Positions 35,923 through 60,109 of a stretch of DNA of 64,000 nucleotides are shown piece by piece (position 1 is the stretch's first letter; the number at the start of each line of letters is the position of its first letter). Below the pieces are notes generated by a model. It was not told the origin of the DNA. It did no database searches and saw only the letters and a list, made by a program, of their open reading frames with translations. Made by a program: the position numbers and the translations under genes. Location of the stretch: the NCBI RefSeq assembly GCF_016679925.1, contig NZ_JAEQBW010000001.1, positions 124,001-188,000 of the forward strand, written 5' to 3'. The stretch comes from Marivirga aurantiaca (lineage in GTDB: Bacteria; Bacteroidota; Bacteroidia; Cytophagales; Cyclobacteriaceae).

Positions 35923-35966
35923 CAAAAGTAGGGAAAGGGATGGAATTGAAAAGTAACAATTGTTAC
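35923..35966 (-). promoter_or_regulatory. Crp/Fnr-like box plus -7 element for the TSUP gene
   Basis: GTAACAATTGTTAC (35953-35966) lies inside a perfect 16-bp palindrome. On the minus strand, exactly 22 bp separate it from TACTTTTG (35930-35923), a full TAnnTTTG match. With transcription starting 5 nt further on, the box centres at -41.5, the class II activator position. Confidence 0.75.
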
Positions 35967-35976
35967 TACTCTAACT

Positions 35977-36765
35977 TTAAAATTCCTTATGGCCTTTTAA
36001 GCTTCTAATGGATTCTTCAAGTTCATTAATACGGTTCCAGATGCTATGTTGTGTGCCGAAATCTGAACTCAAATACATTTTAGCATGCCAGAGTTCCAAG
36101 ATATCAGTTGTTGGGATGTTGATGTTTGGGTAATCCTGTTTGGTGGAGTTGTCTGATCTGGCAACTAGAATACCGGATTGTTCAATTTTATTAAAAATTC
36201 TTTTAATAATGATTCCGTAAGTTTTGGTAACAATCACATATACATGATCATTGGATACGTTCTCAAATTTTTCAACCCATTCAGCAAACACTGTATCTCC
36301 GTGGGTGAGGGTGGGTGCCATGCTATTGCCTTCTACTTCAAACGCCCGGAAAACACCATTTTTTAATTTGGCGATTTGAGAAATAGTTAATTTACTGATG
36401 TAATCTGGATTTCCATTGTTTCTAATATAATCCGTTCTAGCTTCAATGGGGACCATTGCAATGTTGCCAGCCTTACTGGATGCATACGTATCTGTAGGTT
36501 CGTTCATTTGACGAGACTCCGGAGGTGAGTCCGGGCTGTTGTAAGTGTTGCCCGTGATCAGCCATCTTAAATCTAAAATTTCAAACTTGTTTGAGATATC
36601 ATGAATGATGTCGAAACTTGGTTTGGCACTAGGGGATCTTTTGAGCCTATAAAGCTTTTCTGCACTACTGTAACCGAGGAATTCAGCAAATTCATTGATA
36701 TTTTTAAATCCCTGACTATCAGAGAATACCATTAATCTTTCAAAGAAGTTTGAATTTTCTTTCAT
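35977..36765 (-). CDS. S24 family (LexA/CI-like) transcriptional repressor
   Basis: A 262-residue protein. An N-terminal HTH (about 20-75, NINEFAEFLGYSSAEKLYRLKR) is followed by a linker and an S24 peptidase domain (about 110-230). The domain has catalytic Ser in EVEGNSMAPTL and a candidate Lys in YGIIIKRIFN, the dyad used for self-cleavage or surviving as a fold in related repressors. No canonical Ala-Gly cleavage site is certain. A perfect palindrome directly upstream (36781-36796) is the likely operator. It is divergent from a small gene at 36945 and no prophage is nearby. Confidence 0.88.
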   Translation of the reverse strand: MKENSNFFERLMVFSDSQGFKNINEFAEFLGYSSAEKLYRLKRSPSAKPSFDIIHDISNKFEILDLRWLITGNTYNSPDSPPESRQMNEPTDTYASSKAGNIAMVPIEARTDYIRNNGNPDYISKLTISQIAKLKNGVFRAFEVEGNSMAPTLTHGDTVFAEWVEKFENVSNDHVYVIVTKTYGIIIKRIFNKIEQSGILVARSDNSTKQDYPNINIPTTDILELWHAKMYLSSDFGTQHSIWNRINELEESIRSLKGHKEF

Positions 36766-36770
36766 ATTCT

Positions 36771-36802
36771 TTTGCTTGAATACAAACTAGTTTGTATATT
36801 TG
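36771..36802 (+). promoter_or_regulatory. Consensus promoter for the small gene at 36945
   Basis: TTTG (36771-36774), a 20-bp spacer and TATATTTG (36795-36802) match the Bacteroidota -33/-7 consensus. The repressor palindrome at 36781-36796 fills the spacer. Confidence 0.7.
36781..36796. promoter_or_regulatory. Palindromic operator TACAAACTAGTTTGTA
   Basis: A perfect 16-bp palindrome 16 bp upstream of the S24 repressor start and inside the divergent plus-strand promoter. A candidate minus-strand -7 element (TATCTTTG, 36833-36826) lies upstream. The site is positioned for autoregulation and for control of the small gene. Confidence 0.7.
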
Positions 36803-36944
36803 AGTTTATGGATTGAAATATTGAACAAAGATAAAATAAATTAAGCTTAATAGTGGAAAAACACTGAGTCTGTTGTGTAAAGGGGGCCTCTACGCTTAAT
36901 TGTTCAGCTACAGAATCCAATGATGAATAATTAGAAGAGTAATC

Positions 36945-37154
36945 ATGGGCCAAAAAAAGAACAAACATGTATGGGCAGAGAACTGGATTAATGGCATGCA
37001 TTTAGCTATTCAAAATAACGATAAGCACCTTATCCAATCTTTGCTTAAGGAAAATAAAAAAGAGGGAATCAATTGGACTGATGATGTATCACCAGCTTTA
37101 GCTAAGGAATATATTAGGATAAGAGAAATGGCCAACAGTATACTTCAAAGTTGA
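36945..37154 (+). CDS. Small protein divergent from the S24 repressor
   Basis: A 69-residue, basic, helical protein without signal peptide or membrane segment (MGQKKNKHVWAENWINGMHL at the start). I do not recognise the family. A consensus promoter lies about 140 bp upstream and contains the S24 operator, so it is probably the repressor's target. A purine-rich AGAAGAG precedes the ATG. Confidence 0.6.
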   Translation: MGQKKNKHVWAENWINGMHLAIQNNDKHLIQSLLKENKKEGINWTDDVSPALAKEYIRIREMANSILQS

Positions 37155-37233
37155 AATATAATTGCCGTCTTTTGAGGGTTTTCTGATTCACTAATTTTTG
37201 TAAGTAATGAAATGTCTTTAGGGGAATCTTTTA

Positions 37234-37779
37234 CTACCCCTGATCCAACTTATATAAATCTGCATTTTTGAAAGGTATTAAAGCCATGATTACTGCATGG
37301 GTATAATAGCTTGTTCTGTCGATGATGTTTCCGGTCAATATTCCTACAGCACCATTTTTCTGTTTGGAATTGGTATGCCCGAAAACTAGGTCATCCGCCT
37401 CTCCCAATTCTTTTCCTTCATTAATTAGTGCTACAACTGCTTGAGGGAGATATAAAGTGCCTGTCTTTGCCTTGCCGTACATTTCTTCGGATTGAATCAC
37501 AACCCAGGCAAAAGCTTCCATTTCGTTTTCAATTTTGTCTATGCCTCCTTCTATCCCCACCCAGAAGTGGGCATCATGAACTTGCTTTTTTGCATTAACC
37601 GATCTGTTAAAAGCACCTCTTTTGGTTTCCTGATTATCCCTTGGTTGATCACGTACTCCGGAAGGAACTGAGATGCCTACAAACTCAAAATGCTCTGAGG
37701 GAAACATTTTTTCAAAACCATTTTTAACAGCATTTATTTTAACCGGGTTTTTTGAGGCAATGATTACTTTTTTATTCAT
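37234..37779 (-). CDS. yjjX: Inosine/xanthosine triphosphatase (YjjX/DUF84)
   Basis: A 181-residue house-cleaning enzyme that hydrolyses ITP and XTP so they are not used in nucleic acids. The family signatures IIASKNPVKINAV, VPSGVRDQPR, GAFNRSVNA, FWVGIEGGID and HTNSKQKNGAVGILT are all present. It starts 11 bp downstream of the MmcQ/YjbR gene on the same strand, so the two probably form a transcription unit. Confidence 0.92.
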   Translation of the reverse strand: MNKKVIIASKNPVKINAVKNGFEKMFPSEHFEFVGISVPSGVRDQPRDNQETKRGAFNRSVNAKKQVHDAHFWVGIEGGIDKIENEMEAFAWVVIQSEEMYGKAKTGTLYLPQAVVALINEGKELGEADDLVFGHTNSKQKNGAVGILTGNIIDRTSYYTHAVIMALIPFKNADLYKLDQG

Positions 37780-37790
37780 GGGGAAACTGC

Positions 37791-38165
37791 TTAGCTTTTA
37801 ATTTCTTCACGATCTTTTTTGGGGAGTTTAGCTAACACTAAATTATATGAAAGGTCAATCCATTCATGAAGAATGTGGTCAGGAATTGAACCATCCATTA
37901 TAACTTTACACCAATGTTTTTTACTGAAATAGGAGGGGTCTTTCATAGCGGGGTATTGAGCCCTTAGTTCTTCAATAGTATTTGGGTCACATTTGAGACT
38001 AATACTGGCAAATGTATTGATATTGGTAGCGCTAAACATTTTATTTTTCACCTTAAATACCAAAGTATCCGGTAGTTTTGAAAAAGGAATAGATTCAGTT
38101 GTCCCCGGCTTGGCCAGGCAATAAGTTCTAAAATCTTCAATATTCATTTTTTGAGCATTTAGCAA
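37791..38165 (-). CDS. MmcQ/YjbR family protein
   Basis: A 124-residue protein of the YjbR fold (double-wing DNA-binding-like), of unknown biochemical role. Typical features are MNIEDFRTYCLAKPGTTESIPF, the central KMFSATNI, and KKHWCKVIMDGSIPDHILHEWIDLSYNLVLAKLPKK. The true start may be Met7 (MNIEDF). Confidence 0.88.
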   Translation of the reverse strand: MLNAQKMNIEDFRTYCLAKPGTTESIPFSKLPDTLVFKVKNKMFSATNINTFASISLKCDPNTIEELRAQYPAMKDPSYFSKKHWCKVIMDGSIPDHILHEWIDLSYNLVLAKLPKKDREEIKS

Positions 38166-38210
38166 TTTTAAGATTTCTTAAGTTGCTCTTATCACATACG
38201 GGTTTTACCT

Positions 38211-38606
38211 CTATTCTGCCTTAATTGGGGTACATATTTCAATCAGGAAGCCATTCATGTCCCTTACATAACCTACAGTTTGTCCCCAGGGTTTCTCTTT
38301 TAAACTTTCATATTCATGAGCGCCTGCATTTATAGCTTTTTGAAAATCGACCTCAATATTTTCAGTGGTGAATACCAATTCCACTCCAAATGGTTTTGAT
38401 GACTTACTGCTTTTTTCAAACCCATTCCGGAAATTAGATTCTCCTAATGCGGTGGAGGCAAAAGCAATAGTTGTTTCGCCCGAAATTAATTCTCCATAGT
38501 CTTTTTCAGGGATGATGAATTTTCGTTGGAAGCCAAAGGCTTTTTCGTAGAATTCGATGGTTTTGACAACATCTTCCACATATAATATAGTATAGGCAAA
38601 TTTCAT
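38211..38606 (-). CDS. VOC-family (glyoxalase/bleomycin resistance-like) protein
   Basis: A 131-residue single-module pair of beta-alpha-beta units. MKFAYTILYVEDVVKTIEFYEKAFGF is the N-terminal VOC signature, and GQTVGYVRDMNGFLIEICTP is the C-terminal one, with Glu as a potential metal ligand. I start at ATG 38606; an upstream in-frame start at 38633 would add nine residues without a VOC counterpart. The substrate is unknown. Confidence 0.88.
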   Translation of the reverse strand: MKFAYTILYVEDVVKTIEFYEKAFGFQRKFIIPEKDYGELISGETTIAFASTALGESNFRNGFEKSSKSSKPFGVELVFTTENIEVDFQKAINAGAHEYESLKEKPWGQTVGYVRDMNGFLIEICTPIKAE

Positions 38607-39040
38607 TTGTATAAGTTTATATTCAACGGTCACTCCAAATTAAGGGGAATATCTATGCTCTTTTCATGATCTTCTTTTTGCACTCAAAGGCCTTAAAAAC
38701 TACCAGTTTTGGAGGTTTGAATGTAATGATTTTAGCCAAGCTTCACAAATCCTCAGCGGTTCGGAAACTGTATTCTTACGGGGGAAATAAGACCACTACA
38801 ATTCAATTGAAAAGTATTTATGGTTTGGGGCAAATGGACAAGGAAATGCTTTAAAACCCTCAAGCCATATTCATAAAACGTTGTGCATGCTGTAGTCTCA
38901 TTACACTTACATTCAAATTTGCCGCAAACACCCCTAACAAATGTCGTTTGTACCCTCCGGCAGTATGCTGTTTTCTTATTAATTTTGAGCATCAAAATGA
39001 ATTTCATGGTCGCTAGACCTGCAATTCAACCAATATAGCT

Positions 39041-39129
39041 AATGTCGTTAAGTTAAGCTTTAAACTAAAACCTCAACCTTTTATCCTTCTCCAAAGGGAG
39101 AAGGAAGTTTGTCTTAACTTAACGACATT
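39041..39129. mobile_element. 89-bp MITE-like palindromic element, copy 2
   Basis: Perfect 17-bp terminal inverted repeats AATGTCGTTAAGTTAAG and CTTAACTTAACGACATT enclose the same interior as copy 1 (ACCTCAACCTTTTATCCTT, CTTCTCC/GGAGAAG hairpin). The terminal bases differ from copy 1, but the change is mirrored in both arms. It occupies part of the gene-free stretch 38607-39175, in which no other gene is convincing. Confidence 0.8.
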
Positions 39130-39175
39130 GCCAAATAGTATGGGTAATAAAAGGTATTAATGAAAGTTAAAAATT

Positions 39176-39562
39176 ATGAGGACTAAGAAAATATGGGCAA
39201 ACCTGGGTGTAGAGGATTTAGAACGCACTACTAAATTCTATACCGAATTAGGATTTAAATCTAACGGAGCATCTGAAGAACTAACAAGCTTCTTTGTTGG
39301 TGAGGATGAATTTGTGATTCATTTCTTTTTGAAAGAGATACTCCAATCCAGTATGAAAGGAGAAATAGCAGACCTGAAATATGGAAATGAAATTCTGTTC
39401 ACCCTTTCAGCTGGCAGTAAAGAGGAGGTTGACCAATTGGAGAATGAGGTGAAGAATGCAGGCGGAACAATTGTTTCCGAGGCAGAGGAATTTGGGAAAG
39501 GCTATTATGGTTTTGTTTTTGCCGACCCGGATGGTCATAAGTTCAATGTGTTTTATATGTAG
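39176..39562 (+). CDS. VOC-family protein
   Basis: A 128-residue VOC protein of the glyoxalase-like group (WANLGVEDLERTTKFYTELGF at the start, GYYGFVFADPDGHKFNVFYM at the end). It is acidic and cytoplasmic with unknown substrate. It is the first plus-strand gene of the accessory block and lies 46 bp after the MITE-like element. Confidence 0.88.
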   Translation: MRTKKIWANLGVEDLERTTKFYTELGFKSNGASEELTSFFVGEDEFVIHFFLKEILQSSMKGEIADLKYGNEILFTLSAGSKEEVDQLENEVKNAGGTIVSEAEEFGKGYYGFVFADPDGHKFNVFYM

Positions 39563-39627
39563 GTCTTATCTAAAGTGGACAAAAAAGAATTAATTTGTAA
39601 TAATTCATCACACAATAGTTAGCAATA

Positions 39628-39792
39628 ATGGCTTTTAACGACCCACATACCTCCAATAAGAAAGGCGAAAACACGCCAAAATCAGGTGATCCACGCACTA
39701 ATTTTGAGTATCATGGATATTACTTAAATATCTGGCTTGGTGCTTTGGTGAGGTATTTGATCAACTGTGGAACAAGGGACGCTCCGCAATAG
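39628..39792 (+). CDS. Possible small protein (54 residues)
   Basis: An ATG-initiated frame giving MAFNDPHTSNKKGENTPKSG at the start and a hydrophobic C-terminal half (YYLNIWLGALVRYLINCG), a possible membrane-associated helix. I do not recognise it. It sits in line with other plus-strand orphan genes. Length and lack of a known family make it uncertain. Confidence 0.4.
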   Translation: MAFNDPHTSNKKGENTPKSGDPRTNFEYHGYYLNIWLGALVRYLINCGTRDAPQ

Positions 39793-39962
39793 CATTTATG
39801 AATGCATAGGTTTCGAATTAATAACACTTCAAAAACCCACCACCTTTGTAAATTAAAATATATGTATCTTTGAATAGTTAGGAGAGGCAGTGGTTTCCTC
39901 TATTGGGATGCCTTTGGCATAGTCCCCTCATCATAGTCTAAGCGTTAGAAGGAAAAAGAATA

Positions 39963-40568
39963 ATGAAGAAATTTCAACTATTAATTCCAATAATTCTCTT
40001 TTTTACAATAGAAGGATTTTCACAAATTAAGCAGAGTCAAAATGGATTTGAAATATTAAAGGAAGACGAATGGCTTGAATATAGGGACATGATGAATATC
40101 CTGAAAAAACAGAATAGAATAAATAAATCAGATGCAGCTATTCTCAAACAAACGAGCAGTAACAGTTTTGTTGCCTTTGAACAAACCACGGATTCTGTTG
40201 TAAATGAACATGGGAAAATTAGTGAAGAAAATATTCAACTTGCCTTTAGAATTTCAGCTTTAGATAACCCTTATTTAATACTCATAACCTCATATTTAGG
40301 TTTTTGTCATTCATTCAAATATGACCTATCAGAAGCTACGCTTAGCAGAATATTAAACAAAAATAATGTTATTCTGTCGGCTGCAGAGGTGATAAAATTC
40401 GATAAATTTGAAGGTTCTTTTTTAAGGTTTTACACAGACTCTCCTTTTTATGAAAAAGGAGATTGGAGAAAGTATTTCATACTTGATTTAAAAAATCAAA
40501 CTTTTGCTCATAAAGAAAACTGTAGAATTATTAAGAACAAGCAGGATTGTAAGGTTTTTGGAGAGTAG
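39963..40568 (+). CDS. Secreted hypothetical protein
   Basis: A 201-residue protein with a Sec signal peptide (MKKFQLLIPIILFFTIEGFS, cleaved before QIKQS). The mature region is mixed alpha/beta and includes a Cys-poor core with two Cys near the C terminus (ENCRIIKNKQDCKVF) that could form a disulfide. No family is recognised. A TATCTTTG -7-like element lies at 39865-39872, with TTTG 16 bp before it. Confidence 0.75.
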   Translation: MKKFQLLIPIILFFTIEGFSQIKQSQNGFEILKEDEWLEYRDMMNILKKQNRINKSDAAILKQTSSNSFVAFEQTTDSVVNEHGKISEENIQLAFRISALDNPYLILITSYLGFCHSFKYDLSEATLSRILNKNNVILSAAEVIKFDKFEGSFLRFYTDSPFYEKGDWRKYFILDLKNQTFAHKENCRIIKNKQDCKVFGE

Positions 40569-40680
40569 GGAGAGTATTAAGAAGTATAATTAGGCAGCCC
40601 TAACACCAAAAAATCACAACGGCTGGTAAGCGTTGAAAAATATTCAAAACCTTGATCCACATTATATTAACAATTAAAAA

Positions 40681-41442
40681 ATGAAAATATTAACCACTAT
40701 AATATTAGTAGCAGCCAGCTTCAATCTTAGTGCACAAGAAATATTATCTCTTGAACCGACAAATATTTATGATTTGGATTTTGGCCCGCAGGCGCAAAAG
40801 GAATGGCAAATTAGAGATCAGGCATTAAAGGCAATCAGCAGTGGAGAATTGAAGTGGGATGATATGACTGAAGAACAAGAAAAATATGTCCTAAAATATG
40901 GAGAAATTTATAGAGACATGTGGGATATATTAGGTGATGGTTGCAGTTGGTACTGTGGTGGTGGTGTTAAAGATATTAAATCCTCTAGCTCTTTAGAACC
41001 ATCAGGAAATATCACTTATAAAGGACAAAATGCCCATGACTTTAGCTATGAAACTGCCTGGGTTGAAGGAGTCCCTGGACATGGGATTGGTGAGTATCTA
41101 GAGTATTCTTTTTCAGCGACATCACCAAGAATAACGGAAGTGATTATTATCAATGGTTATGTGAAAAGTAAGGCTGTATGGCAAGCTAATTCAAGAGTAA
41201 AAAAACTTCAACTATATTATAACAACAAGCCTTATGCTATTTTGAACCTGGAAGATAAAGTGGCTGAGCAAACTTTTAAGTTAGACCAGGCTTTTGGTTA
41301 TGCAAACCGAACTGATATGGAGGTTTTAAAATTGGAAAAAGACTGGAGTTTGAGATTTGAAATTCTTGAAGTATATGAAGGTGCTAAATATTCTGATACG
41401 GTTATTTCTGAAATTTACTTTAATGGGATTGATGTTCATTAA
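40681..41442 (+). CDS. Secreted protein with NADase-type glycan-binding (discoidin-like) domain
   Basis: A 253-residue exported protein (signal peptide MKILTTIILVAASFNLSAQ). After a helical N-terminal part with GDGCSWYCGGG comes a discoidin-like fold (about 110-250). Its pattern is HDFSYETAWVEGVPGHGIGE, then ITEVIIINGYVKSKAVWQANSRVKKLQLYYN, typical of the domain annotated as NADase-type glycan-binding. It likely binds a surface glycan. The enzymatic partner, if any, is not fused. Confidence 0.75.
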   Translation: MKILTTIILVAASFNLSAQEILSLEPTNIYDLDFGPQAQKEWQIRDQALKAISSGELKWDDMTEEQEKYVLKYGEIYRDMWDILGDGCSWYCGGGVKDIKSSSSLEPSGNITYKGQNAHDFSYETAWVEGVPGHGIGEYLEYSFSATSPRITEVIIINGYVKSKAVWQANSRVKKLQLYYNNKPYAILNLEDKVAEQTFKLDQAFGYANRTDMEVLKLEKDWSLRFEILEVYEGAKYSDTVISEIYFNGIDVH

Positions 41443-41594
41443 GGTGCGGTAAATTTGCAGAATACTTGAAGAGCTTTAAAAGTATTTGCTAGAACATGCT
41501 GAGGTGCAGATCGGTGAACCATTCCCATTAAAACTGACTGCTGAAATTTTGACTTTAGTAACTTAAAAATTACATTTGAATTGATAGGAAAGTC

Positions 41595-41885
41595 ATGAAC
41601 ACGAAAAGTTGGAAAGATATAAAGGATGATGTGTACGGGAAAAAAGGCACATCACGAAGGGATGAACTTGAAAGGGACTTTGGGTCATTCAAGATAGGGC
41701 TATTGCTGAAGAAGGCCAGGGAAGAGAAGCATTTGACCCAAGAGCAACTGGCTACGCTTGTTGATAAAAAGAGGACTTATATTTCACGGGTGGAGAATAA
41801 TGGAAGTAATTTAACATTAAAAACCCTATTTGACATTGTGGAAAAAGGGCTTGGGGGAAAGGTTACAATTTCGATTGATGTCTGA
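41595..41885 (+). CDS. HigA-like XRE-family antitoxin/regulator
   Basis: A 96-residue protein with a helix-turn-helix at about 32-86 (LLLKKAREEKHLTQEQLATL, then KRTYISRVENNGSNLTLKTL). The N-terminal extension (SWKDIKDDVYGKKGTSRRDELERDF) is typical of antitoxins paired with HigB/RelE toxins. No toxin gene precedes it: the upstream 152 bp holds only a short open fragment. It may be an orphan antitoxin. Confidence 0.85.
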   Translation: MNTKSWKDIKDDVYGKKGTSRRDELERDFGSFKIGLLLKKAREEKHLTQEQLATLVDKKRTYISRVENNGSNLTLKTLFDIVEKGLGGKVTISIDV

Positions 41886-41950
41886 AGAGAGATAGGCACC
41901 TCAACTATATCCATTATCCAAAGGAGTGGTGGTTGGTTAAAATTAAATAA

Positions 41951-47677: not shown

Positions 47678-47678
47678 A

Positions 47679-49412: not shown

Positions 49413-50777
49413 TTACGAATTTGAAGAAGTGGTTGTCAATTGTTTAAATTCCTTAACAGCATCACTTAAATCATACACTTTGGCATTAGGTAATAAACTT
49501 TTTACTATGCTGAAACCTGCAGCAGACCTATAGCCACCGGCACAATGAACAACAACAGGTTTTTGTGTATTAATTTCCGAAGCCCTCTCTCTTAATTCAG
49601 GTAAAGGTATATTTTTGGCAGAATCAAAGAATTTGCCATCTGCTACCTCAGATTGATTCCTAATATCGATGATAGTATAAGCATCCGGATTATTTTTAAA
49701 ATCATCCAAATTTACCTGCGGATCTGTTACGGTTTCACCTTTTGGGTTAGTAACAGCGGCCACTAAATTGTTTTCATAGCCGATTTTTGCAGCACGATAA
49801 ATAGCGAAATTTAAAGCTTCATCATTATCAGCAATCAGGTAATACTTTTCATCCGGTGCGACTATGGAACCCAGCCAGGTCTCAAATTTGTCATCTTCCT
49901 TATTTTGAATGTTGATAGCACCTTTTAAATGACCTTTTTTAAAATCTTCTTTTGCTCTGGTATCAATAATAATTGATCCTTTCGGAATTTCCAGTCCATC
50001 TTTCTTTTCAGCATTTTTAACGGCCTCATCTAAAGCTTTAGCCCCCTTTCTATTGACTTCCACGCTATTGGGAAAGTATTTCGGAATAAACGATTGACCT
50101 TCCAAAAACGCATCCACAAATTTACCTTTATCCTTTATTTGGAATGCCCAGTTATTGGCTTTTTCATTGGCGATGGTGCTTGATAAATCACTGCTCATAT
50201 TTTTACCACAAAGTGAGCCGGCACCATGAGCAGGGTAAACAATGGTATCATCAGACAAATCTGCGAAAACATCATTTACAGTATCATACATCATGCCCGC
50301 CAGTTCTTTTCTGCTTACTTGTATGTTGCCAGCTCCTTCTCTTAAGTCCGGCCGGCCTACATCTCCAACAAATAAAGAATCACCGGTGAAAACTGCTTTT
50401 TGCTCTCTGTTTTCATCTAGTAAAAGATAAGAATTATGGTCAGGTGAATGGCCGGGAGTAAATAGTGCTTTAAAAGTTACCTGGCCGATTTTCACTTCGT
50501 CTCCATGCCCCATATGTGTATAGTCATAGCTTACTCCTACCTTCTCATTCACATAAATGGTGGCGCCAAATCTCTTTTGAATTTCCAGGTGGCTACTAAT
50601 AAAATCAGCATGAGGATGAGTTTCAAAAACTGCAACAATCTTTGCATTATGCTCTTCCGAAAACTTGACAAACGGTTCAATATCTCGATATGGATCTACT
50701 AAAGCCACTTTACCTTCACTTTCTATAGCAAAAGAGCCTTGTGCAAGGGCTTCATCATAAAAATGTTTAATATTCAT
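49413..50777 (-). CDS. CstB-like persulfide dioxygenase-rhodanese fusion
   Basis: A 454-residue cytoplasmic enzyme. The N-terminal metallo-beta-lactamase fold (1-245) is ETHE1-like: THPHADF, GHSPDHNSY, GDSLFVGDVGRPDL and PAHGAGSLCGKNMS supply the iron ligands. Two rhodanese domains follow. The first (about 255-350) has no catalytic Cys (LIADNDE at the loop). The second (about 360-450) has HCAGGYRS. This order, with a pseudo-rhodanese, is that of CstB, which oxidises persulfides and yields thiosulfate. A GTAAC-N4-GTTAC box lies 73 bp upstream. A second copy begins beyond the right edge. Confidence 0.9.
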   Translation of the reverse strand: MNIKHFYDEALAQGSFAIESEGKVALVDPYRDIEPFVKFSEEHNAKIVAVFETHPHADFISSHLEIQKRFGATIYVNEKVGVSYDYTHMGHGDEVKIGQVTFKALFTPGHSPDHNSYLLLDENREQKAVFTGDSLFVGDVGRPDLREGAGNIQVSRKELAGMMYDTVNDVFADLSDDTIVYPAHGAGSLCGKNMSSDLSSTIANEKANNWAFQIKDKGKFVDAFLEGQSFIPKYFPNSVEVNRKGAKALDEAVKNAEKKDGLEIPKGSIIIDTRAKEDFKKGHLKGAINIQNKEDDKFETWLGSIVAPDEKYYLIADNDEALNFAIYRAAKIGYENNLVAAVTNPKGETVTDPQVNLDDFKNNPDAYTIIDIRNQSEVADGKFFDSAKNIPLPELRERASEINTQKPVVVHCAGGYRSAAGFSIVKSLLPNAKVYDLSDAVKEFKQLTTTSSNS

Positions 50778-50849: not shown

Positions 50850-50863
50850 GTAACATTTGTTAC
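50850..50863 (-). promoter_or_regulatory. Crp/Fnr-like box upstream of the CstB-like gene
   Basis: GTAACATTTGTTAC, with perfect half-sites. At the 22-bp spacing seen elsewhere there is no good -7 element; the nearest candidate TAGTTTTA is 4 bp further downstream, so promoter strength or geometry differs. Confidence 0.6.
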
Positions 50864-51028: not shown

Positions 51029-53302
<2,274 letters not shown>

Positions 53303-53650: not shown

Positions 53651-53863
53651 CTATTTTTTATTTCTTGGAACTTCGCAGTTTCCACTGGCGCAGTTTCCGC
53701 CTCCACAACCTTGATTGAACAAGGCTAAAAAGGTGAAAAGTGTGCCAATTCCTCCTGCTAACAAATCCGAATTCATTAAACCAATAAATACTAAATAAAA
53801 GCCTACGGCTAATCTGAGCCATCTCATAATGGTCCAGGGCGTATATAAAATAGTTTTAATCAT
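53651..53863 (-). CDS. DUF2892-like membrane protein with Cys-rich tail
   Basis: A 70-residue inner-membrane protein (about residues 12-48 hydrophobic) that ends in GCGGGNCASGNCEV, three Cys in a Gly-rich tail suited to binding metal or sulfane sulfur. It overlaps the upstream rhodanese gene by 4 bp. In E. coli YgaP a rhodanese and a DUF2892 membrane part are fused; here they are separate, coupled genes. Confidence 0.82.
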   Translation of the reverse strand: MIKTILYTPWTIMRWLRLAVGFYLVFIGLMNSDLLAGGIGTLFTFLALFNQGCGGGNCASGNCEVPRNKK

Positions 53864-54174
53864 ATTAACTTTCTATCGAGCGAAACCCAGGCCCCGCCAT
53901 TATAAACCTTTTCATAACCTTTTGCCTTTAATATGCTTTTAGCACGACCGCTTCTCATGCCTGAAGCACAACAGGTGATGATGGCTTGATCCTTATTCTT
54001 CAGTTTGGATAAATTAGAAACAAGACTTTCTACAGGAATATTCATGGCATTTTTAATGTGTCCACCTTGAAATTCTCCCTTGGTACGCACATCCAAAATA
54101 ATAGCTCCTTCCGCAGTTAATTGTTTAAAATCAGCAGCCGGGCCCAGTCCGAATAATTTTCTTAAAAAACTCAT
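53860..54174 (-). CDS. Rhodanese-like sulfurtransferase
   Basis: A 104-residue single rhodanese domain. ILDVRTKGEFQGGHIKNAMNIP is the family opening and the catalytic loop is CCASGMRSG, followed by YNGGAW. A short N-terminal hydrophobic segment (MSFLRKLFGLGPAAD) may associate with membrane. It moves sulfane sulfur between thiols. It overlaps genes on both sides by 4 bp. Confidence 0.93.
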   Translation of the reverse strand: MSFLRKLFGLGPAADFKQLTAEGAIILDVRTKGEFQGGHIKNAMNIPVESLVSNLSKLKNKDQAIITCCASGMRSGRAKSILKAKGYEKVYNGGAWVSLDRKLI

Positions 54175-54437
54175 AATGATAATGCATAATTTTCAGCCTC
54201 ATACCAGGAACCACCATTGTGACAAATAATGCCCTTTGCTTGTAAAATCTGCTGAGCCATTCCGCTTCTGTTTCCTGATGCACAGCATAAAATGATTTCT
54301 CCTTCCATTTTGCTGATTTCGTCAATTTTATCATCAATTTCGTGCAATGGAATGTTGATTGAATCTTGCGCATGTCCCGATTCAAATTCCCCGGCTGACC
54401 TTACGTCAATAATTGTTTTATTACTTGATTTTCTCAT
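54171..54437 (-). CDS. Short rhodanese-like sulfurtransferase
   Basis: An 88-residue rhodanese domain with IIDVRSAGEFESGHAQDSINIP and the catalytic loop CCASGNRSG. It is the first gene of a three-gene operon (rhodanese, rhodanese, DUF2892), all coupled by 4-bp overlaps. The operon has a Crp/Fnr-like box at the class II position and a predicted 21-nt leader. Confidence 0.93.
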   Translation of the reverse strand: MRKSSNKTIIDVRSAGEFESGHAQDSINIPLHEIDDKIDEISKMEGEIILCCASGNRSGMAQQILQAKGIICHNGGSWYEAENYALSL

Positions 54438-54462
54438 TTTATTTTTTGTTTAATGTTACTAA

Positions 54463-54506
54463 CAAAGTAACGGACTTTTGCTACATAGTTTGGTAACAGA
54501 TGTTAC
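54463..54506 (-). promoter_or_regulatory. Crp/Fnr-like box plus -7 element for the rhodanese operon
   Basis: GTAACAGATGTTAC (54493-54506) sits in 10-bp half-sites TTTGGTAACA/TGTTACCAAA. Exactly 22 bp downstream on the minus strand is TTACTTTG (54470-54463), one mismatch to TAnnTTTG. Confidence 0.75.
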
Positions 54507-54525
54507 CAAATAAGGCTAATAACCA

Positions 54526-54732
54526 TCAGGTATTTCTCCTCCGGGAGGAAATCCCGAATGGTAAATAAAGCGGACAGAAACTGATGAAACTTGTAACTAT
54601 AAAAACCAGTGCCAGAATGCCTAAAATTATTGCCAGGGTTCCGCTGATAACACCTAAGTAATACAATACTCCTATTGTAATGGCTAATAAAGTCCTTATG
54701 GTTTTATCAGCAGTTCCCATATTTGCTTTCAT
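54526..54732 (-). CDS. DUF2892 inner-membrane protein
   Basis: A 68-residue protein with two membrane helices (about 14-32 and 34-52) and the DUF2892 pattern MGTADKTIRTLLAITIGVLYYLG, then FCPLYLPFGIS. This matches the membrane part of YgaP-type sulfurtransferases. It has its own Crp/Fnr-like box and a predicted 19-nt leader. Confidence 0.88.
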   Translation of the reverse strand: MKANMGTADKTIRTLLAITIGVLYYLGVISGTLAIILGILALVFIVTSFISFCPLYLPFGISSRRRNT

Positions 54733-54755
54733 AATCTTTTTGAATTTGTTTAGGT

Positions 54756-54799
54756 GAAATATAGCTTATAATTTGGTATGGTATTGTAACATTTGTTAC
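54756..54799 (-). promoter_or_regulatory. Crp/Fnr-like box plus -7 element for the DUF2892 gene
   Basis: GTAACATTTGTTAC (54786-54799), then 22 bp, then TATATTTC (54763-54756) on the minus strand, one mismatch to TAnnTTTG. Confidence 0.75.
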
Positions 54800-54900
54800 T
54801 GATAAAACCATTTCGTTTAGTTTTCTCACGAGTCTGCTTTTTTCTGATAATCAATATTAAAAAAGCCAGTATCCTGCTCTTTTTGTTTACCACCTATCTG

Positions 54901-55488
54901 TCATTCAAGCTCTTTTAGATAAGCTTTAAAATCTGATGTGTTAAAATCTCCCATGCCTGAATGTGTGAGAGCCAGGTTTCCTTTTGCATCAATTACATAA
55001 GTAGTAGGAATACTTTGTGAGTAATACATAGAAGGAAGTCCTTTTGGAGCCTGATAAATTTCAAAATCAAAATTCTTTTTTTGGTGAAATTTCATAGCTC
55101 TCGTAAAATCATCGTCAACAGATAACATAATAAATGCTACTTTATCCTTATCTACATCCTTATAGAGCTTATTAATTCCCGGCATTTCAGCTAAACATGG
55201 CGGGCACCAGCTGGCCCAAATATTGAGAAAAATCACTTTGCCCCTTAATGATTCCATATCCAATTTTTCTCCATTGGAACTAATCAGTTTCATGGAAAAA
55301 TCAGCTTGTGGGTAGCTTTCATTCTCAGCGAATTCTTTTTCTGTATCCGGATCCATTAAGCCTGTTACCAATACCCCTCGTTGTACAAAACCTAGTACCT
55401 CCGTGTGTAAGCCAGTTATATACAAGGTTCCAATAATGCCAAATATGATACTATATTCGATTAAGTTTTTTTTCGTACTTTTCTTCAT
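54901..55488 (-). CDS. TlpA-like membrane-anchored thioredoxin
   Basis: A 195-residue protein with an uncleaved N-terminal anchor (about 9-27) and a periplasmic thioredoxin fold (about 62-190). The redox motif is WCPPC in LNIWASWCPPCLAEMPG, and the cis-Pro region is SIPTTYVID. It probably reduces disulfides or persulfides in the periplasm. A degenerate but correctly spaced Crp/Fnr-like box is 102-115 bp upstream. Confidence 0.92.
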   Translation of the reverse strand: MKKSTKKNLIEYSIIFGIIGTLYITGLHTEVLGFVQRGVLVTGLMDPDTEKEFAENESYPQADFSMKLISSNGEKLDMESLRGKVIFLNIWASWCPPCLAEMPGINKLYKDVDKDKVAFIMLSVDDDFTRAMKFHQKKNFDFEIYQAPKGLPSMYYSQSIPTTYVIDAKGNLALTHSGMGDFNTSDFKAYLKELE

Positions 55489-55559
55489 GTTTCTAATCTT
55501 CTAATCTTCTAATTCAATTTAGTGGCACATCTTGGTAATGATTTTTGTGTTCTTAGTTG

Positions 55560-55603
55560 CAAAATTAACTTACCCACTTAAATAAAGCTGTAACTTTTAT
55601 TAC
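55560..55603 (-). promoter_or_regulatory. Crp/Fnr-like box plus -7 element for tlpA
   Basis: GTAACTTTTATTAC (55590-55603, one half-site mismatch) within AAAGCTGTAAC/ATTACAGCTTT symmetry, then 22 bp, then TAATTTTG (55567-55560), a perfect TAnnTTTG. The symmetry may also serve as terminator of the upstream nucleotidase-like gene. Confidence 0.65.
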
Positions 55604-55718
55604 AGCTTTATTCTTTTAAAGAGGAAACAAAAATTTAACTATCAATGGCCCCTGTTTTTCTATAATCAAGAAATATCATTTTCTATTTTTCCTATTTCTG
55701 GAAATTAAACTGATTGTT

Positions 55719-57362
55719 TTACTCAAACACATAATTTGTTCCAGGAATGGTTGAAAATGAATATTTACCTAAATCATCACTGTAGGACCTTCCGTCAATA
55801 GTAGGTGAAATAGGGGAGTGCTTTCCAAGGTATTCTATTACTGCATCGTGAATTGTATAATCCTTTACAATAACATCCTGAAGATTTTCCATTCTGCATA
55901 AATTATCAAGTGGATCGCCAGGCCTTACACATGCAGAAATAGTGTAAAGGGTAGATTCTTCCATGGGATTTCCATTTACGGTTATTGATTGAACCCTTTC
56001 TCCTTTTTCTTTTTGAACATCAAACTCTACCCTCATTCCTGAAAACCTGACCATCCAACCTCCAAACCGCTCGTTAGCATTGGGAGAAAAAGCATTGTGA
56101 ATCTCTTTTTCCAGCCAGTCTTTTATTTGCCTGCCGGAGGCTTTTCCTGTTTTAATGTTTTCATTAATAGGCAGAATATCCCATAAATTAGCCTTAGTAA
56201 TGGGGGCATTTTCACCTTTTTCAGGTACAATCGGATTACCGAAGCGGAAACCATTAGAAATTGAAATATCAGCACCTGTTTTCCATTTCGCAGCATCTGT
56301 TATCATATTATCCATTGGGTTTTCCACTGTGAGGTATCTGTACAGAGGGGTTGTTGTATAACCAATTACAGTTTCTAAATTGTCCTTATATGGCTTTTTT
56401 GCTTCATCGATCATCTTTTGTAAGGGCTCATTTGCGGGGTAAGTGGCAGGATCCACATCTATAAGTTCATATTCATCTCCCACTCTTTTACCATCTAAAA
56501 AATGAAGCGTTAATTTCCCGACAAAGGAGCCGAAAGCTCCCGGCTCAGCAACTTTTGCATATTTGCCCACTATAAGGTCTCGAATTCTTTCGTGCGTATC
56601 GTTACCTAAAATGTAATCTACATTTTCAGCTATCTCATTACTGGCTAAATCGATTTGTTTGAATGCTCCAATATGGGTTATTAAAAACAATACATCTACC
56701 TTTTCTTCCTGCTTAACTTTATCTATCAATTCTTTAAGATGATGGTCAATCCCACTAAATGTGACTCCTTTGCTGAATATAGGATTTTGTCGGATAGGTA
56801 CAGCTGGATCATTTAACCCAATGAAACCAATTCTAATTCCCTCAATTTCTTTTATCCAATAAGGAGGGAATAAGTTTTCTTTGTCCAAATCATGTTGCAT
56901 ATTTTGGGCAATTACATGGGTTTCATACCCTTTCATCACCTTTAACATTATGTCCTTTCCATACACCACTTCCCAATTGCCCGGAATGATCACATCATAG
57001 CCCATTTGCTTTACAATTTCTGGAAAAATGGCACCTTCTGAAAGTGCAGCATAACCACTTCCCTGAATTAAATCTCCACCATCCAGTATAACTGTACGGT
57101 GAGGATTTTTTTCGCGCTCTTGTTCAAAAAGAGTTTTTATGTTAGCTAACCCACCTCTTTGCTTAAACTTAATTTCACCATTTTCCCAAAATAATTCAGG
57201 ATGGGAATCAAGCTGCCCGTGTATATCTGCTGTTTGAAGTATGGTAATACTAATTGTATCATTTGTTGTTTTATATGCAGTGTTATTCATTGTTGCAGGC
57301 TGATTACAAGAGCTTAATAATGTGATGCTTATTGTACTTAGCAATAAAAATATATATTTCAT
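55719..57362 (-). CDS. SoxB-like metallophosphoesterase/5'-nucleotidase lipoprotein
   Basis: A 547-residue exported lipoprotein (signal ending LLSSC). The metallophosphoesterase domain (about 38-290) has QTADIHGQL, ILDGGDLIQGS, PGNWEVVYG, ITHIGA and GNDTHERI. The GNHE motif of 5'-nucleotidases is changed to GNWEVVYG, resembling the GHWEFTYG of SoxB, which hydrolyses sulfate from SoxY. The 5'-nucleotidase C-terminal domain (about 330-510) has SGMRVEFDV. It follows an exported DsrE-like gene by 23 bp within a sulfur island. No soxAXYZ genes are present, so SoxB activity is inference; a nucleotidase is the alternative. Confidence 0.8.
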   Translation of the reverse strand: MKYIFLLLSTISITLLSSCNQPATMNNTAYKTTNDTISITILQTADIHGQLDSHPELFWENGEIKFKQRGGLANIKTLFEQEREKNPHRTVILDGGDLIQGSGYAALSEGAIFPEIVKQMGYDVIIPGNWEVVYGKDIMLKVMKGYETHVIAQNMQHDLDKENLFPPYWIKEIEGIRIGFIGLNDPAVPIRQNPIFSKGVTFSGIDHHLKELIDKVKQEEKVDVLFLITHIGAFKQIDLASNEIAENVDYILGNDTHERIRDLIVGKYAKVAEPGAFGSFVGKLTLHFLDGKRVGDEYELIDVDPATYPANEPLQKMIDEAKKPYKDNLETVIGYTTTPLYRYLTVENPMDNMITDAAKWKTGADISISNGFRFGNPIVPEKGENAPITKANLWDILPINENIKTGKASGRQIKDWLEKEIHNAFSPNANERFGGWMVRFSGMRVEFDVQKEKGERVQSITVNGNPMEESTLYTISACVRPGDPLDNLCRMENLQDVIVKDYTIHDAVIEYLGKHSPISPTIDGRSYSDDLGKYSFSTIPGTNYVFE

Positions 57363-57385
57363 TTTTCGTTTTTTTAAAGTGCTTA

Positions 57386-57802
57386 TTAGAGACTTAAACT
57401 AAAATATCCCTTCTTTTGAAGCTGAAAATCATATAATATGCCATTTTCAACAATTTCAATTTCTTCAGGCACTTTTGATTGATCAACATTAAATTTTGAT
57501 AGTGAAAAACCACAAGCAACAATTCTAACATTTGCTGTTTTTGCCATTTCAATAAAAGCATCGATTTTCTTTGGGTCTGTTATATCCCCAATTGCTTTTC
57601 CGCAAAAAATTACTACAAATTCTCCAAATTGGTTTTTATTTTCATTCTGAAGCTCAATGGCACTTAAAATAATTGGTTTTAATTGTTGCACCTTTTTTGT
57701 AAGTACTACATAATTATCAGTTGCCTCTTTGTTTTGCGCTTGCGTTTGAAAGCTTAAAAGCAAGAGAATAATTGTTAAAGAATTTATTATTAAAGTTTTC
57801 AT
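57386..57802 (-). CDS. Exported DsrE-family protein
   Basis: A 138-residue protein with a signal peptide (MKTLIINSLTIILLLLSFQT, cleaved near AQA-Q) and a DsrE/F-like fold. Two Cys lie at the ends of core strands: VVIFCGKAI (about 67) and RIVACGFSLSKF (about 98). The second matches the conserved sulfur-carrying Cys of DsrE-type proteins. Cytoplasmic DsrE/TusD proteins carry persulfide sulfur; this one should be periplasmic. It sits 23 bp upstream of the SoxB-like gene. Confidence 0.82.
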   Translation of the reverse strand: MKTLIINSLTIILLLLSFQTQAQNKEATDNYVVLTKKVQQLKPIILSAIELQNENKNQFGEFVVIFCGKAIGDITDPKKIDAFIEMAKTANVRIVACGFSLSKFNVDQSKVPEEIEIVENGILYDFQLQKKGYFSLSL

Positions 57803-57929
57803 GTGTATATAATTGATTTTTAGTTGTCACATGGAATAGCTCAGCCACCTGCAATCTCAATAACCGCCATTTTTACACCTAATATTCATGCTCGGTTAGT
57901 ATGCTTCGGTTTATGGCTATTTCATATAT

Positions 57930-58325
57930 TTATTTTTTTGTTTGAGTTGTGTCATTTAAAATAAAGAAAAGGAGTCCTCCCAAAATGGCTATGTTCTTAA
58001 ACAAAGGCCCCATAGTTTCTAATTGACCTACTTGTACAGTAAGAGTAATAGGGATAAGCACTGCAATAAGTATAATGGCAGCCCATCTGGTTTTAAGCCC
58101 TAAAAGAAAACTTATACCTGCTATTATCATTACAATCCCGGAAGAAATAATTAGCCATTTTGGATCAACCATGCCACTTATGATTTCAATAAAGTTGGCA
58201 TTAGCTAGCCTAGAAGCTATTTTTTCAATATTGAACAGATGATTAAAACCTGCTACTATGAAAATTCCACTCAGGAAGATCCTCAAAACCCTTACCGAAA
58301 ATCGGCTGATTAAGATATCGTTCAT
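57930..58325 (-). CDS. DoxX/DoxD-family membrane protein
   Basis: A 131-residue protein with four membrane helices and the DoxX-type start (RVLRIFLSGIFIVAGFNHLF, then GLKTRWAAIIL). DoxD/DoxX proteins include thiosulfate:quinone oxidoreductase subunits, and many homologues are of unknown role. The sulfur context favours a quinone-linked function. It lies 127 bp upstream of the DsrE-like gene on the same strand. GTAAC-N9-GTTAC upstream (58346-58364) has the wrong spacing for the island's box. Confidence 0.85.
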   Translation of the reverse strand: MNDILISRFSVRVLRIFLSGIFIVAGFNHLFNIEKIASRLANANFIEIISGMVDPKWLIISSGIVMIIAGISFLLGLKTRWAAIILIAVLIPITLTVQVGQLETMGPLFKNIAILGGLLFFILNDTTQTKK

Positions 58326-58479
58326 TGGAGAAAATTTTAAATGGAGTAACTATTAATAAGTTACTTTGAAAACGTTAGAAATGGTATATTCAATTGGCCG
58401 AGTGATTATCGGTACTGTAAAAAAGGTTAATCGAAATCCTACTTTTTTTACCCTATTGAATATATAATTTGAAAATGAA

Positions 58480-58833
58480 TTAAGCTTTGGGGGGTGGGGA
58501 GAGGCAGTTAAGATACCTGGAGCTTAGGCTAGTGAAAAAGAATCCTGTAAATTCTGAAGTGGTCAATATTTCTTTGCTTTCCCACTTAAATAAACTAATT
58601 TCTGTATTATTATTACAAAAATCATCAATAGCCAATAAATGGATTTCTTTAGCGGTTAATTGTGTTTGGGTGTTTTCTGAAATGGACGCAATTGTCTTTT
58701 TTTTACAATGTGGTTTTGTTAGAATTATTTTATCTGATATTGAAAGTTTTGTAAAACCACGAGCATCAATAGCTATCAATTTTGTCAAAAACAAAATGAT
58801 AAGTATAACAGATATGAGGTTCCTTGAGTACAT
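58480..58833 (-). CDS. Small exported hypothetical protein, predicted leaderless mRNA
   Basis: A 117-residue protein with an N-terminal signal or anchor (MYSRNLISVILIILFLTKLI) and a Cys in the mature part (TKPHCKKKT), plus another near residue 72 (DDFCNN). The family is unknown to me. A canonical Crp/Fnr-like box and perfect -7 element place the predicted transcription start on the A of its ATG. This, with the signal peptide, favours this frame over the opposite-strand open frame of similar size. Confidence 0.72.
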   Translation of the reverse strand: MYSRNLISVILIILFLTKLIAIDARGFTKLSISDKIILTKPHCKKKTIASISENTQTQLTAKEIHLLAIDDFCNNNTEISLFKWESKEILTTSEFTGFFFTSLSSRYLNCLSPPPKA

Positions 58834-58837
58834 TTTT

Positions 58838-58881
58838 CAAATGTAGATATTTAAGTGTTAACGAAATGTAACTTTTGTTAC
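58838..58881 (-). promoter_or_regulatory. Crp/Fnr-like box plus -7 element for the small exported protein
   Basis: GTAACTTTTGTTAC (58868-58881), then 22 bp, then TACATTTG (58845-58838), a perfect TAnnTTTG. The start codon begins 5 nt after the -7 element. Confidence 0.78.
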
Positions 58882-58916
58882 TCAGCTTTTTATTGATAGA
58901 GATTGTTTTCTGAAAA

Positions 58917-58942
58917 ATGCCCCTGCAAAAAGAAACAGGGGC
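58917..58942 (-). terminator. Terminator after the yeeE pair
   Basis: Perfect 7-bp stem GCCCCTG/CAGGGGC with a 10-nt loop and an ATTTTTC tail on the minus strand, 41 bp after the stop of the second YeeE gene. Confidence 0.8.
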
Positions 58943-58982
58943 TATTAACACCACTAACACAGTAACTTATTTCCGAATTGTT

Positions 58983-59396
58983 TTAATGAGGCAATTTATG
59001 TCTGAGTTTCCCATAAACATAAGTACCCAACATTGCCGAAGCAATAACCACTAAAATTACGCCTACGCCATTGCCCAAAAGAATGAACATTGGCCCGGGG
59101 CAAGCTCCGGTTAATGCCCAACCGAGGCCGAAAATTGTCCCGCCTATTAAATAGCGTGCCCAGCTAAACTTTTTTGGAACTATCATAATAGGTTCTCCAT
59201 CTATGGATTTTATTTTTTTCCTTTTAATCAGCTGAATCACTATTATGCCAATAAGAATTGCAGACCCTATTACGCCATACATATGAAAGGACTGAAACTT
59301 AAACATCTCATAAATTCTAAACCATGAAATAACTTCTGCTTTTGCTAATGTTATTCCGAAAATTGCACCAATAAATAAATATCTAAAAAATTTCAT
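58983..59396 (-). CDS. YeeE/YedE-family sulfur transporter, half 2
   Basis: A 137-residue membrane protein with about four helices. It carries the family motif GLGWALTGACPGPMFILLGNGVG, whose Cys is the conserved thiol that relays thiosulfate or sulfide in YeeE-type channels. It is 27 bp downstream of the 191-residue half. Together they equal one full-length YeeE/YedE. Confidence 0.9.
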   Translation of the reverse strand: MKFFRYLFIGAIFGITLAKAEVISWFRIYEMFKFQSFHMYGVIGSAILIGIIVIQLIKRKKIKSIDGEPIMIVPKKFSWARYLIGGTIFGLGWALTGACPGPMFILLGNGVGVILVVIASAMLGTYVYGKLRHKLPH

Positions 59397-59423
59397 GTTT
59401 CTAATTTTTTCTAATTTTTTTGA

Positions 59424-59999
59424 TTAAAGCGCCAGCAGGTAGGGTAGAACAAAATAAGTGACTGTAAGTCCTCCTATAAAAAAACCGATTACTGCCAATA
59501 GCGATGCAGGCTGTAAATCACTAAGGCCTGAAATAGCATGGCCTGAGGTACAGCCTCCGGCATAGCGCGTGCCAAAACCTACCAAAAAACCTCCTACTAC
59601 TATAAATATAATCCCTTTAAGAGTTAATAAGGATTCCCAGTTAAATATTTCTGTTGGTACAACTGTTTTACCAGGATCAGCAATACCATAAGCTTGTAAT
59701 TCTGTAATAGTTGTGGCAGAAATATGCGCGGCTCTATCATGTCCTAAATAGAGGTAAGCTATTAACCCTCCTAAAACCAACCCTCCTGCAAATACCAGGT
59801 TCCAGGCCTGCTCCCTCCAGCTAATAGCAAAAAAATCGCATGATTTTCCTGCGCCTAATAATGAGCACATTGTTCTTAAATTGGAAGAAATTCCAAAGAA
59901 TTTTCCGAAGAACAACATTGAAAACATCACCAGGGCAATTATTGGGCCTGCAACATACCAGGGCCATGGCTGGCTAATCCATTCTAATAATTGATTCAT
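59424..59999 (-). CDS. YeeE/YedE-family sulfur transporter, half 1
   Basis: A 191-residue membrane protein with about five helices. It has the conserved GFGTRYAGGCTSGHAISGLSDLQPAS, with the thiol Cys in GGCTSGH, and a second Cys in GAGKSCDF. Such split pairs import thiosulfate or related sulfur species. The Crp/Fnr-like box is 97-110 bp upstream, giving a leader of about 62 nt. Confidence 0.92.
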   Translation of the reverse strand: MNQLLEWISQPWPWYVAGPIIALVMFSMLFFGKFFGISSNLRTMCSLLGAGKSCDFFAISWREQAWNLVFAGGLVLGGLIAYLYLGHDRAAHISATTITELQAYGIADPGKTVVPTEIFNWESLLTLKGIIFIVVGGFLVGFGTRYAGGCTSGHAISGLSDLQPASLLAVIGFFIGGLTVTYFVLPYLLAL

Positions 60000-60065
60000 A
60001 ATTAATTGTTGAGTTTAAATTCTATATGGAATATAGATTCTACTTATTTGTTTTTATAAGTAGAC

Positions 60066-60109
60066 GCAATTTAGTGTAGCTACATTTATTGGGATGTAAC
60101 AAAGGTTAC
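60066..60109 (-). promoter_or_regulatory. Crp/Fnr-like box plus -7 element for the yeeE pair
   Basis: GTAACAAAGGTTAC (60096-60109), then 22 bp, then TAAATTGC (60073-60066), a partial match to TAnnTTTG. Confidence 0.68.

Follow-up and report, generated by a model that had tools for sequence, protein, structure and literature searches.

What controls the sulfur genes gathered in one island of the Marivirga aurantiaca genome is the question raised by a stretch of 64,000 nucleotides (the window; C11:124001-188000 of a 5.01-Mb, 36-contig genome), in which the palindrome GTAAC-N4-GTTAC recurs in front of one gene after another. The initial annotation described six such boxes, each an invariant 22 bp upstream of a -7-like promoter element, TAnnTTTG, and proposed that they are read by a Crp/Fnr-type protein. 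We conclude, with a probability of roughly 80%, that the boxes are the operators of one trans-acting Crp/Fnr activator, the product of a gene on contig C30, which would bind at -41.5 in the class II manner and control genes for sulfur handling. Support at the level of sequence comes from the boxes, their spacing, their set of targets, and their conservation, and from the co-occurrence, adjacency, and helix co-variation of the regulator. From these we infer that the regulator binds the boxes directly, that it activates rather than represses, and that its signal is sulfane sulfur acting on the CxxSxxCC cysteines.

All six boxes are present as described, five of them exact matches to GTAACN4GTTAC and the one at 55590 with a single mismatch, and each lies exactly 22 bp (N22) from a -7 element. 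A seventh, exact box at 50850 had been overlooked and lacks a -7 element at that distance; the spacing therefore stands for the six boxes of the original claim and is not strict. The boxes and elements are as follows, elements being scored out of six against TAnnTTTG.

35953-35966, minus strand: box GTAACAATTGTTAC, exact; TSUP promoter, predicted centre -41.5
35923-35930, minus strand: -7 element TACTTTTG, N22 from box 35953; 6/6
50850-50863, minus strand: box GTAACAAATGTTAC, exact; no -7 element at N22
54493-54506, minus strand: box GTAACATCTGTTAC, exact; before rhodanese genes
54463-54470, minus strand: -7 element TTACTTTG, N22 from box 54493; 5/6
54786-54799, minus strand: box GTAACAAATGTTAC, exact; before YgaP-like DUF2892 gene
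54756-54763, minus strand: -7 element TATATTTC, N22 from box 54786; 5/6
55590-55603, minus strand: box GTAATAAAAGTTAC, one mismatch; before TlpA-like gene
55560-55567, minus strand: -7 element TAATTTTG, N22 from box 55590; 6/6
58868-58881, minus strand: box GTAACAAAAGTTAC, exact; before small exported protein gene
58838-58845, minus strand: -7 element TACATTTG, N22 from box 58868; 6/6
60096-60109, minus strand: box GTAACCTTTGTTAC, exact; before YeeE/YedE-type gene
60066-60073, minus strand: -7 element TAAATTGC, N22 from box 60096; 4/6

An eighth box lies about 0.5 kb beyond the end of the window (64503 in window numbering, C11:188503), with TATATTTG at N22. The element before the YeeE gene agrees fully with TAnnTTGY, known as SM5 in Flavobacterium psychrophilum, and may point to another sigma factor.

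Six exact boxes in the window compare with an average of 0.01 over 100 dinucleotide-shuffled sequences, in none of which six were reached. When box 64503 is scored together with the seven of the window, as the eight boxes of the island, their -7 matches at an offset of 22 add up to 40 of 48, the next best sum among offsets 14-31 being 21; a score of 40 was reached at no offset from 0 to 59 in any of 2,000 shuffles. The genome holds 11 exact boxes, of which 7 fall within one 28.6-kb island, a clustering with a binomial chance of 6e-14 for an island whose limits are defined by the boxes themselves.

The same arrangement is conserved in relatives. In a draw of 196 genomes of the family, M. aurantiaca included, the exact box followed at N22 by TAnnTTTG occurs 88 times, in 48 genomes, as against once for a reversed control. 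With any gap from 7 to 37 bp allowed there are 124 matches: 88 at 22, 7 each at 21 and 23, and 22 spread over the other 28, so that N22 outnumbers the other 30 spacings combined by 88 to 36. A slightly looser box, searched in 296 genomes of the phylum, matched in 44, all of them in the organism's own family, order, or class (control, 2), and in none of the genomes marked only as belonging to the same phylum; one of these matches (G427) is an hcp box, so the sulfur role need not hold for all 44. Passages of a study of F. psychrophilum place the -7 box at -12 to -5 (PMC9723704), and by that arithmetic a box at N22 spans -48 to -35 and is centred on -41.5, the class II position that the initial annotation had assigned to it. 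The dominance of N22, taken with these mapped positions, gives the single fixed spacing of a class II-type layout, from which we infer that the bound protein activates transcription.

A scan of the whole genome, which the initial annotation had named as a test that might refute the proposal, supports it. With at most one mismatch, box plus N22 plus TAnnTTTG occurs at eight places, every one of them in front of a gene: seven sulfur-type genes and the small exported protein. Five are in the window (TSUP, the small exported protein, a rhodanese, the YgaP-like DUF2892 protein, and TlpA); the others precede an MBL-rhodanese gene just past its end, a rhodanese-thioredoxin operon (C2), and a further MBL-rhodanese gene (C22). 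Two mismatches add YeeE and one further place on C30, and allowing up to three reaches background (24 and 31 on the two strands against 73 and 67 in the control). Gene context was established for 18 of the 29 places that match a relaxed box; the remaining 11 all fall outside the places with at most two mismatches to the full promoter. All the targets first proposed, namely the TSUP permease, rhodaneses, DUF2892 protein, TlpA, small exported protein, and YeeE, do lie downstream of boxes. The genes concerned are listed here.

35092-35898, minus strand: TSUP (TauE/SafE) permease; Pfam TauE, 2.5e-40
49413-50777, minus strand: metallo-beta-lactamase (MBL)-fold protein with rhodanese domains; Pfam Lactamase_B and two Rhodanese stretches
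53651-53863, minus strand: small membrane protein of 70 amino acids; no Pfam or NCBIfam match
53860-54174, minus strand: single-domain rhodanese; Pfam Rhodanese, 2e-17
54171-54437, minus strand: single-domain rhodanese; Pfam Rhodanese, 6.6e-12
54526-54732, minus strand: YgaP-like transmembrane protein (the DUF2892 protein of the initial annotation); Pfam PF11127, 1.3e-18
54901-55488, minus strand: TlpA-like thioredoxin-fold protein; Pfam AhpC-TSA/Redoxin
58480-58833, minus strand: small exported protein of 117 amino acids; no Pfam or NCBIfam match
58983-59396, minus strand: DUF6691/Sulf_transp half, partner of the YeeE/YedE-type half
59424-59999, minus strand: YeeE/YedE-type transporter half (Sulf_transp); Pfam, 3.7e-14, with a weak NCBIfam TsuA match below cut-off
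63027-63965, minus strand: rhodanese portion of an MBL-rhodanese gene cut by the end of the window; the box of this gene, at 64503, is outside

Box 50850 stands upstream of the MBL-fold/rhodanese gene at 49413-50777, whose product is probably of the persulfide dioxygenase/sulfurtransferase type. Judged by co-orientation, the small exported protein gene is possibly the first of an operon that continues through DoxX, DsrE-like, and SoxB-like/5'-nucleotidase genes to 55719. The metallophosphatase/5'-nucleotidase at 55719-57362 has the thiosulfohydrolase SoxB as its best NCBIfam match, below cut-off (250 against 550 bits). A catalase-peroxidase (KatG) gene at 51029-53299 also lies inside the sulfur island, with no exact box directly upstream. 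In relatives, exact box promoters further precede a sulfate-permease-family gene and a SoxA/TsdA-type cytochrome c.

Which protein, then, reads the boxes? The genome encodes 25 matches to the cyclic nucleotide monophosphate (cNMP)-binding domain, 23 of them above cut-off. Among 30 family loci (1.5-kb flanks, one upstream open reading frame [ORF] shown), four have a Crp/Fnr gene beside the box, and all four encoded proteins match the same M. aurantiaca protein at 44-60% identity, the next best reaching at most 26%. This candidate, a Crp/Fnr protein of 208 amino acids, is encoded at C30:380600-381226, on a contig unlinked to the island. In seven neighbourhoods of 18-19 kb from relatives, its counterpart always lies no more than a few kb from a box; four of them had been chosen for that adjacency, and the other three, chosen otherwise, also have the regulator near the box. 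The expectation of a regulator gene close to the island is thus not borne out in this genome, where the two nearer Crp/Fnr genes (21 and 43 kb away) do not fit, while the idea of a Crp/Fnr-type reader is strengthened by one specific protein.

Comparison across the 196 genomes points to the same protein. With a regulator match of at least 195 bits, the exact promoter is present in 35 of 48 genomes as against 13 of the 148 others (Fisher p 1.9e-17, uncorrected for kinship), and p stays below 1e-10 at all four score cut-offs tried. By the same measure, the Crp/Fnr gene nearest the island does not co-occur with the promoter (8/24 versus 40/172, p 0.31). A box lies within 8 kb of the regulator in 29 of the 48 box genomes (within 1 kb in 17), which accounts for 35 of the 88 boxes. 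The recognition helix co-varies with the operator: GTAAC promoters are found in 34 of 47 genomes in which the regulator residue corresponding to CRP Glu181 is Val, versus 5 of 42 in which it is Glu (p 8e-9), a comparison that used the regulators of 100 of 168 genomes, dropped 11 whose helix pattern was unmatched, and is likewise uncorrected for kinship. Position 181 has been linked with the operator base in passages of PMC1274295.

GTGAC-type boxes with N22 also exist, at 68 places in 56 of the 196 genomes against 5 in the control. A sister subfamily in relatives (L278, L279, L282-L284, L286) carries CALSLTCC or CAMSLTCC and a TSREVISR helix. The sister-subfamily genes L278 and L279 each have, where their own listed ORF starts, a GTGAC...GTTAC box followed at N22 by TAATTTTA, which suggests autoregulation.

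The regulator was followed into 80 named loci out of 163 relatives, found by scanning contigs with the pattern CAMSI[TS]CC and including Marivirga, Fulvivirga, Roseivirga, Marinoscillum, Ekhidna, Balneola, and many Flavobacteriaceae. It adjoins boxes and sulfur genes in Marivirga, Fulvivirga, Marinoscillum, Balneola, and Flavobacteriaceae, and a sulfur gene of the reference set lies within five ORFs of it at 64 of the 80 loci. The first 53 loci include 41 with an exact box, 37 of these with a good -7 element at N21-23, and 28 of those directly before a sulfur gene. The other 27 are more distant (26 from Flavobacteriaceae genera, one from Labilibacter). There YeeE is the next gene after the regulator in 26, and the full order YeeE-DUF6691-TSUP-MBL-rhodanese is kept in 22. 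A box with at most two mismatches separates regulator and next gene in 21 of the 27, always with a -7 element of at least 5/6, at N22 in 13 and N21 in 8; in the gap after the regulator of the other 6 no such box was found.

The candidate is a member of the Crp/Fnr family by both of its domains, a cNMP-binding-type beta-roll (PF00027, 2e-12) and a Crp-type helix-turn-helix (PF13545, 3.4e-12), each above cut-off. An AlphaFold2 monomer model of its M. sericea orthologue (predicted local distance difference test score 85; predicted template-modelling score 0.61, domain placement uncertain) has CRP, NtcA, and CprK as neighbours in the PDB. The segment that aligns with the ligand pocket of cyclic-nucleotide sensors reads ETCAMSITCCLEG and contains the CxxSxxCC motif; in the model of the orthologue this segment is a short helix (residues 79-87). 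In CRP the phosphate-binding cassette presents Arg-Ser to the cyclic nucleotide; the aligned segment here, ETCAMSITCCLEGQQSTFHVV, has Cys and no Arg, unlike a cAMP-binding CRP. FNR carries an N-terminal cysteine cluster, and the candidate, with no Cys before residue 77, is not of that Fe-S type. The three cysteines (C77, C83, and C84) are invariant in a 15-row alignment; one of 31 rows keeps the outer two without exception and the middle one in at least 90%. CxxSxxCC is found in 79 of the 80 named-loci proteins and CAMSLTSC in one (first and last Cys in 80/80, middle in 79/80), a count biased by the pattern used to find them; the string occurs in 67 of 89 genomes recovered by a protein search without that pattern. 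Among 24 M. aurantiaca cNMP proteins CAMSITC is confined to the candidate, one other having CPLSREC.

Together these features suggest a mechanism. Crp/Fnr proteins are dimeric. Reactive (sulfane) sulfur would act on the conserved CxxSxxCC cysteines, and their oxidised or persulfidated form would most likely shift the dimer to its DNA-binding state. The dimer would then occupy GTAACN4GTTAC, centred at -41.5, and contact and recruit the housekeeping RNA polymerase. TSUP, YeeE-DUF6691, MBL-rhodanese, rhodaneses, the YgaP-like DUF2892 protein, TlpA, and thioredoxin would be switched on, and with them the import, trans-sulfuration, and oxidation of sulfane sulfur. More tentatively, and at slightly worse than even odds, the protein may represent a class of Crp/Fnr activators across Bacteroidia and Balneola that senses sulfane sulfur by a CxxSxxCC motif in place of the cyclic-nucleotide pocket and acts as master switch of sulfide and thiosulfate handling.

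Several observations weigh against the proposed regulon. Box 50850 scores only 2/6 at N22, its best nearby element being TAGTTTTA at N26, and a box before a fatty-acid-hydroxylase-like gene of M. aurantiaca (C11:271115) likewise has no good -7 element at N22, only a degraded one (best 4/6, at N21); the box at C22:64897 has no evident target, and in Balneola, where a box follows the regulator, the N22 element is only 3/6 in three of five loci. Some targets are not sulfur genes: in three relatives (L131, L168, L178) an exact box, spaced N23 from TATCTTTA, precedes a fatty-acid-hydroxylase/OlsE-like gene close to the regulator, and in several genomes exact box promoters stand in front of TolC-type efflux genes (L095, L096, L109, L187, L188, L191, L235, L241), which suggests that a toxic sulfur compound is exported or that the system has a broader part in stress. 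In the 19 kb around the C30 regulator there is no exact box and none of the reference-set sulfur genes, and because it is also unlinked to the island it would have to act in trans in M. aurantiaca. Relatives of the candidate at E<=1e-30 occur in 168 of the 196 genomes and the exact promoter only in 48, so co-occurrence had to be judged by match strength; 13 of the 48 strong-match genomes have no promoter and 13 box genomes have no strong match, which makes the link dependent on the score cut, and related genomes are not independent. In the mirror test, GTGAC-type boxes were no commoner with the Glu form (11/42) than with Val (13/47).

How do other explanations fare? Palindromes picked out by eye from chance occurrences would account for box 50850 being off the spacing, and for the looser palindrome GTAAYN4RTTAC, whose 29 places genome-wide fall below the 84 of the reversed control (a lack of enrichment that also tells against a regulon) and mostly have no -7 element. 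The signal is the clustering in the island and the link of box to -7 element, rather than the looser palindrome alone, and the shuffles and the 88 matches against 1 in relatives already refute chance, leaving it a negligible probability. A different reader, either the Crp/Fnr gene nearest the island (C11:209318-209968), the other neighbouring one (C11:116599), or a non-Crp protein, would gain from the closeness of those two genes, and yet the nearer, to which the co-occurrence test was confined, shows no association with the box, and an R-V-x-x-S-R helix is found only in the candidate among ten of the 25 matches examined; such a reader is improbable. The two neighbouring genes were rejected as readers by their helices, and the nearer one by co-occurrence as well. 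An appreciable though unlikely alternative is that the candidate reads the boxes and represses, or senses oxygen, redox state, or thiosulfate instead of persulfide: a site at -41.5 overlaps the -33 region, conserved cysteines would also suit disulfide redox sensing or a metal or cluster site, and the targets include efflux and lipid-hydroxylase-like genes. The fixed spacing, common to the activated promoters of NtcA, fits activation. Known persulfide sensors use two or three cysteines in the account excerpted from PMC9774590, and the targets here are of the sulfane-sulfur type.

The closest challenge comes from HcpR2, a Crp/Fnr regulator of hcp in Bacteroides and others, since its motif GTAACnnnnGTTAC, published by Rodionov et al. 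2005 (PMC1274295), is identical to the box. Among 198 genomes of the class, the four with hcp above the Pfam cut-off (L272-L275) all have the box (at most one mismatch) upstream of hcp, with TAnnTTTG at N22 in three and N23 in one, and in two of them an HcpR2-like Crp/Fnr gene is next to hcp. The motif and class II layout are therefore of known kinds, and a box by itself does not show which protein reads it, which again weakens the case for the candidate. An HcpR2-type reader and a nitrosative-stress regulon are nevertheless highly improbable here, where the targets are sulfur genes: none of the 196 family genomes searched, M. aurantiaca included, has hcp, and the two hcp-linked proteins have a Pro helix (ARPSLAR/SRPSLAR) and give no BLASTP match to the candidate at 1e-3, their best M. 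aurantiaca matches being 22% and 25% identical. The absence of hcp, together with the non-orthology of these proteins and their Pro at 181, led us to reject HcpR2 as the identity of the candidate. Apparently, two Crp/Fnr branches that differ in their recognition helices share the operator GTAACN4GTTAC, one for a sulfur and the other for a nitrosative-stress regulon.

Bacteroidota abound in places with sulfide and thiosulfate. The open-licence PMC literature searched yielded no description of this sulfur regulon, its regulator, or its cysteine motif, of any regulator of sulfide or persulfide handling in Bacteroidota, or of a persulfide-sensing mode for Crp/Fnr proteins, which is weak evidence of absence because only open-licence papers were covered. 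What emerges for direct testing is a candidate protein together with its operator, promoter geometry, predicted targets, and cysteine motif.

Among known systems, NtcA, the cyanobacterial Crp-family nitrogen regulator, is one of the candidate's closest solved relatives and shares its R-V-x-V/I-T/S-R helix (NTSRVVISRIL in the candidate, GSTRVTVTRLL in NtcA). Passages of PMC3898017 describe a GTAN8TAC site at about -41.5, in one case 22 nt from the -10 element, and a protein that, unlike the one proposed here, answers to 2-oxoglutarate and controls nitrogen genes. The match of the candidate to NtcA is only 43.6 bits, the aligned NtcA segment has no cysteines, and for NCBIfam TIGR03697 the M. sericea orthologue, at 47.4 bits, falls well short of the cut-off of 244.95. 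The best sequence match in the PDB is 3dv8, a Crp/Fnr protein of Eubacterium rectale (4.3e-20, or 6.3e-29 with a profile), in which the first two motif cysteines are present and the third is replaced by Ile; it is 27% identical in the fold match. The persulfide-responsive regulators CstR, SqrR/BigR, and FisR, with two or three sensing cysteines, resemble the proposed system in their sulfur-detoxification targets and in their cysteines, if the candidate senses as proposed; as portrayed in excerpts of PMC9774590 they belong to the CsoR, ArsR, and Fis families, respectively, and none to Crp/Fnr. FisR, there an activator with three conserved Cys, may be a functional parallel to the M. aurantiaca regulator, a putative activator that also has three conserved cysteines.

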